A stretch of 64,000 nt of DNA, taken from assembly GCF_000447795.1 (NCBI RefSeq), contig NZ_AUNI01000015.1, positions 62,001-126,000 of the forward strand, given 5' to 3'. Both the position numbers and the translations under genes were made by a program. Shown here one piece after another: positions 48,280 through 52,256 of this stretch. Each line of letters starts with the position of its first letter. Positions within the stretch are counted from its first letter, which is position 1. The stretch is from Bacteriovorax sp. Seq25_V (GTDB lineage: Bacteria > Bdellovibrionota > Bacteriovoracia > Bacteriovoracales > Bacteriovoracaceae). The notes under the pieces were generated by a model. It had not been told where the DNA came from and made no database searches. It saw nothing but the letters and a program-made list of their open reading frames with translations.

Positions 48280-49344
48280 ATGAAAAAGAAATTAATAATA
48301 GTTTTAATGTTTATGAATTCAGCTGTCTTTGGGAGTGTTAAGCTTGAAGAAATCGCTAGTGGCCTAAGAGTAGTATGGGGAATGGACTTTATTGATAACG
48401 AGACGCTGATTTTTACTGAAAAATTGGGGAAATTAAAAATCTTAAATTTGAAAACAAAAGAGATTAAAGAGATCTCAGGCGCGCCTGAAGTTTATAAGCG
48501 TGGACAAGCAGGTCTTTTAGATATAAAGCTTCATCCTAAATTTGCATCAAATAGAAGAGTCTATATTACGTATTCTAAATCGATCAGTGAAGATAATATT
48601 ACCACTGCGATTGGTTACGGAATACTTGAGGGGCTTCAACTGAAAGATTTTAAAGATATCTTCGTTGGGAAAGGAAATTCTAGTACAGGTTATCATTTCG
48701 GATCTCGTATGTCCTTCTCAGGGGATAATACGATTTACTTCACAATCGGAGACAGAGGACAGAGGGATAATGCACAGAATTTACAGAATCATTTTGGAAA
48801 AGTTTTACATATAAATGATGATGGAAGTATTCCGAAGAATAATCCCTTTATTGATCAAAAAAATGCGTTACCTGAAATATGGAGTTATGGACATAGAAAT
48901 CCTCAAGGACTTGTCTATGATATGAATTCAAAAACTTTATATGAAATGGAGCATGGTCCTCGTGGAGGAGATGAAATAAATATTATTCAAAAAGGTAAGA
49001 ACTACGGATGGCCTTTAGCCTCATATGGTAAAGAATATGCACTACCAGTTAGTGTGGGTGATAAAAAAGTTAAGGGAACTGAGCAGCCTTTAAAATTTTA
49101 TGATCCTAGTATTGCACCTAGTGGGCTTATCTATTACCAAGGTAGTCGGTATAGCGAATTTAAAAACTCTTTAATCTCTGGAGCTTTAAAGCTAACTCAT
49201 ATGAATGTGTTTAATCTTGCTAACAAAAAAGAAACTCGATATTTTGAAGATAAGAAGCAGAGAATGAGATCAATTGCAATCTCCCCTGATGATTATATTT
49301 ATATTTCAACAGATGGCGGAAAAATCTATAAAGTTGTTCAGTAA
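48280..49344 (+). CDS. PQQ-dependent sugar dehydrogenase family protein
   Basis: 354 aa with a signal peptide (~18 residues, VFG-SV). Six-bladed beta-propeller of the soluble aldose sugar dehydrogenase (Gdh/YliI) family: GQAGLLDIKLHP, FGSRMSFSGDNTIYFTIGDRG, GHRNPQGLVYD and EMEHGPRGGDEINI are conserved. These enzymes oxidise aldoses in the periplasm using PQQ. No PQQ synthesis genes are in the window. A terminator lies ~30 bases downstream. Confidence 0.92.
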   Translation: MKKKLIIVLMFMNSAVFGSVKLEEIASGLRVVWGMDFIDNETLIFTEKLGKLKILNLKTKEIKEISGAPEVYKRGQAGLLDIKLHPKFASNRRVYITYSKSISEDNITTAIGYGILEGLQLKDFKDIFVGKGNSSTGYHFGSRMSFSGDNTIYFTIGDRGQRDNAQNLQNHFGKVLHINDDGSIPKNNPFIDQKNALPEIWSYGHRNPQGLVYDMNSKTLYEMEHGPRGGDEINIIQKGKNYGWPLASYGKEYALPVSVGDKKVKGTEQPLKFYDPSIAPSGLIYYQGSRYSEFKNSLISGALKLTHMNVFNLANKKETRYFEDKKQRMRSIAISPDDYIYISTDGGKIYKVVQ

Positions 49345-49428: not shown

Positions 49429-49926
49429 TCAGCTAAAGCTAAAATCAAATAACTGACAGCTTTTAAATTCTCCAAGTGCTCTTTTAATTGTGGGGTATAT
49501 TCTTGTGGAAGAGATTGCAATAGATAACTCAGCAACTTGTTCAGCGGTATAATTTTTACTTATTTCTTTTTGTAATTCTAAGTGACCATCTTGATTTGCC
49601 GCTACAGCTTTCGCGAATTGATATATTTGTTTATATCTATCCTCTAAATTCTCTGGTGCCTTGATAATATTTTTTACAAGATTCTTATTGACTCCCGCTT
49701 CAAGTGCCATCGTAATATTTAGTTGTACACAAGCACCACAGTCTTCAGTTAACATTGCGGCTATTTTTGCTGTCCAAAGTATATCTGTCGGTAGCGACTT
49801 TCCAACTTGCCCCATTGGTAGAAAGTCTACAAATGCTTTAAAGGCTTCCGGCGCATCTTTTGCTAGTTTTCTCATATAGTTACAGTCGTAATTGTAATGA
49901 GACTCAAATTGATCAATAAATTCCAT
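49429..49926 (-). CDS. carboxymuconolactone decarboxylase family protein (AhpD-like)
   Basis: 165 aa helical protein. The family motif is TEDCGACVQLN with Glu61, Cys63 and Cys66: a CxxC with a preceding acid as in AhpD-type alkylhydroperoxidases. Likely a thiol-based peroxidase or electrophile-handling enzyme. GGAGG is 5 bases upstream of the ATG. It is divergent from the ECF41 sigma-factor gene, and its promoter matches the ECF41 signature exactly, so it is the probable target of that sigma factor. This fits the known ECF41 context, in which such decarboxylase-family genes are neighbours. Confidence 0.88.
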   Translation of the reverse strand: MEFIDQFESHYNYDCNYMRKLAKDAPEAFKAFVDFLPMGQVGKSLPTDILWTAKIAAMLTEDCGACVQLNITMALEAGVNKNLVKNIIKAPENLEDRYKQIYQFAKAVAANQDGHLELQKEISKNYTAEQVAELSIAISSTRIYPTIKRALGEFKSCQLFDFSFS

Positions 49927-49949
49927 ATTTCCTCCTTATTGTATCTTTA

Positions 49950-49976
49950 GACGATAGAGGTCTTTAATTTGTGACA
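49950..49976 (-). promoter_or_regulatory. ECF41-type promoter of the decarboxylase gene
   Basis: On the minus strand TGTCACA (49976-49970) is followed by 16 bases and then CGTC (49953-49950), matching the TGTCACA-N16-CGTC form I know for ECF41 promoters. The start codon at 49926 leaves room for a short leader with GGAGG. Confidence 0.85.
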
Positions 49977-49998
49977 AATAAAATTATATTATTTTTAA

Positions 49999-50025
49999 TG
50001 TCACATTTTATCGCTATAATTCGTC
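49999..50025 (+). promoter_or_regulatory. ECF41-type promoter of the sigma-factor gene
   Basis: TGTCACA (49999-50005), exactly 16 bases, then CGTC (50022-50025), the same signature as on the other strand. The start codon at 50032 begins 7 bases after CGTC, so the transcript should start at or within a base or two of the ATG. Confidence 0.85.
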
Positions 50026-50031
50026 TTAGTT

Positions 50032-50919
50032 ATGATGGAAGAATTTAAAAAATACAGAGCTTTATTAATGGCCATTTCTTATCGAATGATGGGCACCTTT
50101 ACGGAAGCAGAGGATATTGTCCAGGAAGTAAGTATTGAGTGGTTTAATACTAAAAGAGAGGAAATATTAAATCCGAAAAGTTGGCTTGTTCGAGTCACTA
50201 CAAATAAGGCCATCGATGCACTTAAAAAAGCGTATCGAAAAAGAGAAATTTACACGGGAACGTGGTTGCCGGAAATTATGCCTGATTCACTGATTACTTG
50301 GGAAGACGATTTAGATATTAAGGAATCGTTAAATACATCGTTTCTGATTCTCTTAGAAAATCTTTCTCCAAAAGAAAGAGCCGTCTACTTATTAAGCGAA
50401 ATTTTTGAGTATAACTCTCATGAAGTGAGTGAATTATTGAATTCCACTGAAAGTAATTGCCGAAAAATTAAACAAAGAGCAAAGGAAAAGATTAAAAATA
50501 GAAATCTTGCAAAAAGTGAAACAAGTGAAGAGTCCTTAAAGATTGTAAGAGAGTTATTCGATGCTCTACGATTAGGTCACAACGATATTGTTGAAAATCT
50601 ACTTCTACCAGATTCTGAGTTTTGGTCTGATGGAGGCGGAAAGGTCTCTGCTGCACGAAACATTATAATAGATATAAATAAGATATCTCGTTTTCTCACA
50701 ACTATTTTTAAAAATTTAGAAAATGATGAATTTACTTATAAATATGATTTTACAAATGTTAATGGTCTTCCTGGACTTGTGTTCTCAAAACAAAATAGCA
50801 AGAAACTTTGGAATCTCGAAACAGTCTTTTCATTCGAGATTGAATGTGGAAAAGTGTCTCGGATTTATGCTCAAAGAAATCCAGATAAAATTTCCTATGT
50901 TGAGAATATTTTTTTATAA
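50032..50919 (+). CDS. ECF41-group sigma factor with SnoaL-like C-terminal domain
   Basis: 295 aa. Sigma-2 domain (~5-70, TEAEDIVQEV), linker with WLPE at 78-81, sigma-4 (~105-155, LSPKERAVYLL), and a ~130-residue SnoaL-like C-terminal domain. DGGGK is at 200-204 and NPDKI at 283-287. WLPEP-like, DGGGK-like and NPDKL-like motifs are the three ECF41 hallmarks, and the fused domain takes the place of an anti-sigma factor. I see no ribosome binding site before the tandem ATG codons; with the promoter 7 bases away a leaderless mRNA is expected. It probably drives itself and the divergent decarboxylase. Confidence 0.93.
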   Translation: MMEEFKKYRALLMAISYRMMGTFTEAEDIVQEVSIEWFNTKREEILNPKSWLVRVTTNKAIDALKKAYRKREIYTGTWLPEIMPDSLITWEDDLDIKESLNTSFLILLENLSPKERAVYLLSEIFEYNSHEVSELLNSTESNCRKIKQRAKEKIKNRNLAKSETSEESLKIVRELFDALRLGHNDIVENLLLPDSEFWSDGGGKVSAARNIIIDINKISRFLTTIFKNLENDEFTYKYDFTNVNGLPGLVFSKQNSKKLWNLETVFSFEIECGKVSRIYAQRNPDKISYVENIFL

Positions 50920-51115: not shown

Positions 51116-51490
51116 ATGTTTAAATATATTATGGCGGCAATATTTGCGGCTTCGGCAGCCTATGGTAATTCAGCTCTTGTTGGAACTTATGATTTAAAAG
51201 TAAATATTAATAATAATTTCTTTGATGATATTTTTGAGGTCAAAGAAATTTTTCATGGGAAAATTTTGGGAACATTTGAGGTTCCAAATATCTTCAAATC
51301 TCGCTTTGATGGAAAAATCCTTGATGGAAAGATCGTAGGGAGTTTTACTGCAATAGAAAATGGAAGTGAATTTGAAGTTATTTTAAGGGCAGAGCCTGGT
51401 AAAGAGGCATGCGATTTAAGTGGAACTCTACAATCTGAAGACCAAGTCTTTGGTACTTTTATTGGAAAGAAGAGAGGTTGTGATGAATAG
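51116..51490 (+). CDS. small exported protein, 124 aa
   Basis: The start is ATG 51116 because GGAG (51106-51109) is 6 bases upstream; the longer ATG at 51104 overlaps that site. Signal peptide (~20 residues, ending AYG), then a beta-rich domain with repeated Phe-Gly-x-Phe strands (GKILGTFEVP, DGKIVGSFTA, VFGTFIGKK), suggesting a small beta-barrel or meander. No family recognised. The last 8 bases overlap the nitroreductase start, so the two are coupled. Confidence 0.7.
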   Translation: MFKYIMAAIFAASAAYGNSALVGTYDLKVNINNNFFDDIFEVKEIFHGKILGTFEVPNIFKSRFDGKILDGKIVGSFTAIENGSEFEVILRAEPGKEACDLSGTLQSEDQVFGTFIGKKRGCDE

Positions 51491-52256
51491 TGTTCTAGAA
51501 CAAGTTTATGCCCATCGTTCAATTCGTAAATATCAAGATAGAGATATTGAGCAAGATGTTCTTGAGAAAATTCTTGAAGCTTCTACTTTTGCATCGACAT
51601 CTGGAAATATGCAGGCCTATTCAATAATTGTCACAAGATCTAAGGAGCAGAAGAAAAAGATGTTGAAGGCGCATTTTAATCAGCCAATGCTGATGGATGC
51701 ACCTGTATTTCTAACTTTTTGCGCAGATTTTAATCGTATGCGAAAATGGATTAAGCATAAAGAAGCTGCAAATAATTTTGATAATTTTATGAGTTTTATG
51801 ATTGCGACAATTGATGCGACTTTAGCTAGTCAAAATGCAGCTTTGGCCGCTGAGAGTTTGGGGTTAGGGCTATGTTATATGGGGACAACGTTGGCGAGTG
51901 CAGATAAAATAGGTGAAGTGCTTAAGCTTCCAAAGAATGTTGTTCCTATTGTGGGGTTTTCTTTGGGTTATGCTGATGAACGTCCTGAGATGAGAAGTCG
52001 ACTTCCTTTAAATTCGATTGTTCACTATGAGACTTATAGCAATTATACAGATAATGAATTAGACGAGATTTATTCAGATAAAGAGAGAGAAGGTCTTAAG
52101 CGTTACAGGTCTGATACCGAATTAAATAAGAAGCTTAATAAGCTTGGGATTGAAAATTTGGCTCAGATTTATACTCAATTAAAATATACAGAGGAGTCCC
52201 ATATTAAGTATAGTGAAGATTTACTAAGTTATATAAAGGAGCAATGTTTTATTTGA
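51483..52256 (+). CDS. nitroreductase family protein (NfsA-type)
   Basis: 257 aa FMN-dependent NAD(P)H oxidoreductase. Starts with VYAHRSIRKYQDRDI, then ASTSGNMQAYSIIVTRS (FMN contacts), DAPVFLTFCADFNRM, LAAESLGLGLCYMGT and GFSLGYADERPEMRSRLP. The longer C-terminal part after RPEMRSR fits the NfsA/FRase I subgroup. I choose ATG 51483 with AGAGAGG upstream, not the in-frame upstream codon at 51420, which lies deep in the previous gene. Reduces nitroaromatics, quinones or disulfides. It overlaps the preceding small exported gene by 8 bases. Confidence 0.92.
   Translation: MNSVLEQVYAHRSIRKYQDRDIEQDVLEKILEASTFASTSGNMQAYSIIVTRSKEQKKKMLKAHFNQPMLMDAPVFLTFCADFNRMRKWIKHKEAANNFDNFMSFMIATIDATLASQNAALAAESLGLGLCYMGTTLASADKIGEVLKLPKNVVPIVGFSLGYADERPEMRSRLPLNSIVHYETYSNYTDNELDEIYSDKEREGLKRYRSDTELNKKLNKLGIENLAQIYTQLKYTEESHIKYSEDLLSYIKEQCFI

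Follow-up and report, generated by a model that had tools for sequence, protein, structure and literature searches.

A putative self-contained ECF41 circuit with back-to-back promoters and a predicted leaderless sigma arm in Bacteriovorax sp. Seq25_V

A gap of 105 bp between two divergent genes of Bacteriovorax sp. Seq25_V, a marine bacterium of the predatory type, raises the question of how a sigma factor may serve both its own gene and that of an adjoining protein from two copies of the same promoter. We analysed this locus within a stretch of 64,000 nucleotides (the window). The sigma gene lies on the plus strand and the gene of a CMD-family protein on the minus strand, with the following features in and around the gap.

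49429 to 49926, minus strand: CMD-family (AhpD-like fold family) protein gene, 165 aa, called from the open reading frame
49929 to 49938, minus strand: Shine-Dalgarno sequence AAGGAGG of the CMD gene with its spacing, called from the sequence
49950 to 49976, minus strand: predicted ECF41 promoter of the CMD gene; -35 TGTCACA at 49976-49970, -10 CGTC at 49953-49950
49977 to 49998, no strand: spacer between the two -35 elements, 22 bp, 100% A+T
49999 to 50025, plus strand: predicted ECF41 promoter of the sigma gene; -35 TGTCACA at 49999-50005, -10 CGTC at 50022-50025
50017 to 50019, plus strand: in-frame TAA, just 5' of the -10 of the sigma promoter
50032 to 50037, plus strand: ATGATG, 6 and 9 nt past the sigma -10, predicted leaderless start of the sigma gene
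50032 to 50919, plus strand: ECF41/SigJ-type sigma factor gene, 295 aa

By profile searches, the neighbours of the pair encode a GSDH protein and an unassigned 128-aa protein, and none of the neighbouring genes was an anti-sigma gene. The glucose/sorbosone dehydrogenase-family (GSDH) gene (window positions 48280-49344) lies beside the CMD gene and is read from the other strand, and a terminator-like hairpin (49393-49374, minus strand) lies just 3' of the CMD gene. An NfsA-like nitroreductase gene (window positions 51480-52256) is found ≈ 560 bp 3' of the sigma gene, past the 128-aa protein. The nitroreductase was left out of the regulon because it has no ECF41 site in front of it.

The sigma protein had been assigned to ECF41 on the basis of the motifs WLPE, DGGGK and NPDKI. 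These are present at residues 78-81, 200-204 and 283-287, respectively, and the assignment was supported by all ECF41 features open to testing. The 295-aa protein contains only sigma2 (residues 5-69) and sigma4 (residues 107-154; Pfam r2/r4), followed by a C-terminal extension, a SnoaL/NTF2-like domain; the extension typical of ECF41 factors has ≈ 100 aa. WLPE lies in the sigma2-sigma4 linker, where ECF41 proteins carry WLPEP; its fifth residue here is I, not P, and W78, L79 and P80 are invariant across five Bacteriovoracaceae proteins. DGGGK and NPDK (283-286) are located in the extension. An adjoining COE gene with no anti-sigma gene is also typical of the group; here the COE gene gives a weak match to Pfam CMD and encodes a CxxC motif.

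The structure of the sigma protein was predicted with AlphaFold from an alignment of 22 sequences (pLDDT 84). In this model the extension has a SnoaL-like fold, and a Foldseek search retrieved SigJ and Streptomyces tsukubaensis SigG1 over the full length, followed by SnoaL/NTF2-like proteins. The best match was Mycobacterium tuberculosis SigJ (5xe7; E 2.5e-15, 304 alignment columns), which shares the sigma2-sigma4-SnoaL-like fold over nearly its whole length but is only 27% identical in the structural alignment. With the SigX4/SigJ sequence models the protein scored 255 bits, compared with cut-offs of 271 for NCBIfam SigJ (NF007214) and 323 for SigX4 (TIGR02957). Thirteen genomes of the phylum gave a match at the limit of the search, and one of them passed the NF007214 cut-off. 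On its sequence features we file the protein as ECF41 and not as a member of NF007214 or TIGR02957; by sequence and modelled fold it belongs to the SigJ family.

The initial annotation had placed TGTCACA-N16-CGTC on both strands of the gap, with a spacer of 16 in each case, and had proposed scanning the complete genome with this motif. The two sites were confirmed to the base, the plus site (49999-50025) reading TGTCACATTTTATCGCTATAATTCGTC and the minus site (49976-49950) reading TGTCACAAATTAAAGACCTCTATCGTC. The motif is that of ECF41 promoters and stands before the target gene. Scanning the 3.45-Mb genome (G000) for exact matches yielded two, both in this gap, and the reversed control pattern yielded none in the same genome; ≈ 0.8 chance sites per genome are expected from base composition. 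Shuffled windows, with spacers of 14-18 allowed, contained 0.05 matches on average, and none of 100 shuffles contained two. That one of ≈ 1000 divergent gaps should carry, by chance, one site per strand with both facing outwards has a probability of ≈ 1e-7. By sequence, the gap motifs are two ECF41 promoters, and their use is predicted.

The locus had also been described as a complete, self-contained regulon. This agrees with the exact motif occurring nowhere else in the genome, and the regulon looks limited to the sigma/CMD locus; the sigma factor presumably activates its own gene. Could the sigma factor have a wider regulon, reached through degenerate promoters, with the CMD gene as one target among several? 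PMC8999054 cites a paper in which motility is under the control of an Azospirillum brasilense ECF41 factor. However, single targets are described for Bacillus licheniformis, Rhodobacter sphaeroides and Sinorhizobium meliloti, the genome holds no other exact site, and sites with at most two mismatches elsewhere in the window were at chance level (8 found versus 8.3 expected). We consider a wider regulon unlikely.

The proposed target had been called decarboxylase/peroxidase-like. It is a CxxC protein of the CMD family, the CxxC being CGAC, and is 70% identical in alignment to its orthologue in Bacteriovorax sp. BSW11_IV (G002); its score against Pfam CMD was 20.1 bits, below the cut-off of 23. 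The peroxidase part of the label is weak. AhpD proteins have a catalytic His after the CxxC, and in the sequence CGACVQLN this position is taken by Asn. His is found four residues past the second Cys in 49 of 61 promoter-linked CxxC proteins. A peroxidase function should not be assumed here because Asn replaces His. A PHROGs search with the CMD protein gave no match. An ECF41-linked phenotype was found in neither of two species tested.

ECF41 sigma genes were detected in 5 of 129 Bacteriovoracaceae genomes and in 3 further genomes from another family of the phylum (369 genomes searched), which presumably represent Bdellovibrionales. In a midpoint-rooted tree built from a sample of 79, the eight proteins of the phylum form one clade (support 100/100), placed beside Bacillota (99/94). 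Two of the Bacteriovoracaceae genes (L005:1420-1461 and L006:1420-1461) keep CGTC-N8-ATG and have the -35 TGTCCCT, which sits within an inverted repeat, GGGAC(A/T)TGTCCC. The CMD protein encoded near these two sigma genes is of the canonical RASQxNGCxFCxxxH type.

The bidirectional arrangement had been thought unusual, a view that did not survive comparison. Wecke et al. (2012; PMC3426412, Table 4) give the divergent order <ECF< >COE> for 55 of 373 ECF41 loci (15%). The motif precedes the sigma gene in 36 of these and the partner in 41, and they describe both divergent genes as often preceded by it. Of the eight ECF41 loci found in the phylum, six have paired promoters. The back-to-back pair occurs in this genome, in BSW11_IV, in the three presumed Bdellovibrionales and, with one -35 mismatch, in Halobacteriovorax marinus 36_234_T64 (G044). 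The -35/-35 distance was 16-23 bp in the other phylum loci with exact -35 pairs. Outside the phylum, back-to-back pairs came from an alphaproteobacterial search (L121 and L136) and an actinobacterial search (L182 and L193). Most of the annotated plasmid ECF41 loci that we looked at were operons with all genes on one strand. The tabulated loci of Wecke et al. and those collected here rule out that the bidirectional layout is new, and an ECF41 switch with two identical, opposed promoters, for the sigma gene and for one redox-like enzyme, is an already known kind. The class of Wecke et al. resembles the present locus in sigma architecture, promoter consensus, CxxC CMD partner, divergent order and the motif before both genes. 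Bdellovibrionota is not named in their list of phyla, and the taxonomy current at the time would have counted these bacteria as Proteobacteria. The leaderless sigma arm that we predict below is absent from the description as available.

The sigma -10 ends at 50025, and ATG codons begin at 50032 and 50035, 6 and 9 nt further on. ATG 50032 is not preceded by a Shine-Dalgarno sequence. Since the TAA at 50017-50019 closes the frame, translation of the sigma factor cannot begin 5' of the -10. The mapped ECF41 transcript of S. meliloti SMb20029-rpoE9 starts at about the ninth base after CGTC. Published values for B. licheniformis and R. sphaeroides lead to the same position, a -10-to-ATG distance of 31/32 minus a 5'-RACE leader of 22/23. 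Applied here, this rule would place the sigma transcript start at ≈ 50032-50034, the ninth base being 50034, between the two ATGs. Because the -10 lies 6-8 nt before an ATG, with an in-frame stop just upstream, the sigma mRNA is predicted to be leaderless; most likely, it would begin at the AUG or within 3 nt of it, without a Shine-Dalgarno sequence. The ATG of the CMD gene lies 23 nt past its -10, and the predicted transcript start at ≈ 49941 would leave a leader of ≈ 15 nt. The two predicted starts are ≈ 90 bp apart. At neither mRNA start did we detect RNA structure beyond that of shuffled sequences.

The short spacing recurs in related genes. In BSW11_IV, L005, L006 and the three presumed Bdellovibrionales the -10-to-ATG distance is 8 nt; in H. 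marinus it is 12 nt. Outside the phylum, it is 8 nt in alphaproteobacterial (L125), betaproteobacterial (L238, L239 and L240) and gammaproteobacterial (L139) loci, and 7 nt in Rhodanobacter. We compared 159 distinct ECF41-like sigma genes, 27 of which have a strict promoter of their own. In 9 of these 27, an ATG in frame lies precisely 8 nt past the -10, and 16 have a start codon within 5-13 nt. When all 159 genes were scanned without regard to the -35, CGTC-N8-ATG occurred in 11 and any other spacing in at most 4, and all 11 had TGTC at the right -35 distance. Among promoters near but not of a sigma gene, 4 of 108 had an ATG at 8 nt (Fisher p 6e-5, a guide only because related genes are counted, from about three independent lineages). 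The 8-nt spacing itself must have few independent origins, about three, because the eight phylum genes form one clade. Likely starts of partner genes lie ≈ 20-58 nt from the promoter, mostly with AGGAG-type sites.

Some observations count against a leaderless sigma arm. The ATGs at this locus are 6 and 9 nt from the -10, not 8, and two ECF41 genes with their own promoter (L140 and L235) have leaders with Shine-Dalgarno sequences. Translation might instead start further in, at ATG 50068-50070, on an mRNA whose leader would be ≈ 35 nt long; sigma2 would then lose 12 residues from its beginning, and that ATG has no clear Shine-Dalgarno sequence either. Beyond this locus, the chances seem about even that self-transcribed ECF41 sigma genes are often leaderless, conserved across Bdellovibrionota, alpha-, beta- and gammaproteobacteria, with a leader and Shine-Dalgarno sequence on the enzyme side. 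Our search of the accessible literature retrieved only the paper on the S. meliloti start site and nothing that links ECF41 to leaderless transcripts, which is not proof of absence. Streptomyces coelicolor sigJ is documented as leaderless and, according to the title of the source paper (PMC3160421), is controlled by sigma H. For an ECF41 switch of this kind, a sigma message that would start directly at its own start codon seems to be unreported.

Alternatively, this may be an ordinary divergent ECF41 unit in which the short -10-to-ATG distance reflects compaction, and a weak upstream housekeeping promoter, perhaps in the A+T spacer, mainly transcribes the sigma gene while the ECF41 site adds little. 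The spacer of 22 bp consists entirely of A+T, and an autoregulated sigma gene would presumably need some basal expression. However, no sigma-70-like site scored in the 105-bp gap, the 8-nt spacing is kept across classes of very different base composition, and a transcript from upstream would still lack a Shine-Dalgarno sequence before ATG 50032. This makes such a promoter an improbable main source of sigma mRNA. The inverted repeat TGTGACA-N22-TGTCACA might suggest that a dimeric repressor or activator binds the two motifs as a symmetric operator and that they are not promoters. This is ruled out for all practical purposes: in the paired loci of the phylum the -10 (CGTC/TGTC) stays at 16 nt on both sides while the half-site distance varies from 16 to 23 bp, and most other ECF41 loci have one site before one gene (see also Wecke et al., 2012).

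Among known systems, S. meliloti SMb20029-rpoE9 (ECF41) shares TGTCACA-N16-CGTC, a CxxC CMD target and a single target, but it forms a single operon that opens with the CMD gene, and the mapped promoter precedes that gene. The bidirectional promoters of Escherichia coli (Warman et al., PMC12825309) likewise give divergent transcripts from one short region; those are pseudo-symmetrical, and the binding of one polymerase precludes that of the other, whereas here the promoters are separate and back to back. A second geometry was noticed in another family of the phylum, where four loci (L079:1396, L081:1405, L083:2396 and L084:2385) carry a face-to-face pair upstream of the sigma gene, symmetric TGTCAC(A/G)-N16-CGTC-N8-GACG-N16-TGTGACA. 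Their sigma factors are of a second, SigJ/SigI-like type without WLPE or DGGGK, and the divergent gene at the two loci examined (L081 and L084) encodes a YCII-like protein. By the ninth-base rule each predicted start in the face-to-face pair falls on the -10 of the other, and the two directions should therefore exclude each other.

For the Bacteriovorax locus, we consider it highly probable that sigma and CMD genes form a self-contained, autoregulated ECF41 circuit with back-to-back promoters and a leaderless sigma arm. The sigma factor would be restrained by its own fused SnoaL-like domain, an inhibition shown for other ECF41 members. A signal would release it, and both promoters would then be transcribed, one copy driving the sigma factor's own gene in a presumed positive feedback and the other driving the CxxC CMD-family protein, the sole other evident target. 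The same promoter would thus be coupled to two modes of translation, a leader with a strong Shine-Dalgarno sequence for the enzyme and leaderless initiation for the sigma factor. This difference would keep the yield of sigma factor per transcript low relative to the enzyme and could thereby damp the feedback.

Predatory-type bacteria are thus among the carriers of a complete ECF41 circuit that matches the textbook exactly, and its two matched promoters form a compact natural pair. Should the leaderless sigma arm prove real, a single promoter sequence would drive a different mode of translation on each side. The output stage would then be asymmetric, either limiting positive feedback or sustaining sigma synthesis where conditions favour leaderless translation. 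In the former case, a self-activating sigma factor that lacks an anti-sigma gene would have a simple means of limiting its feedback.
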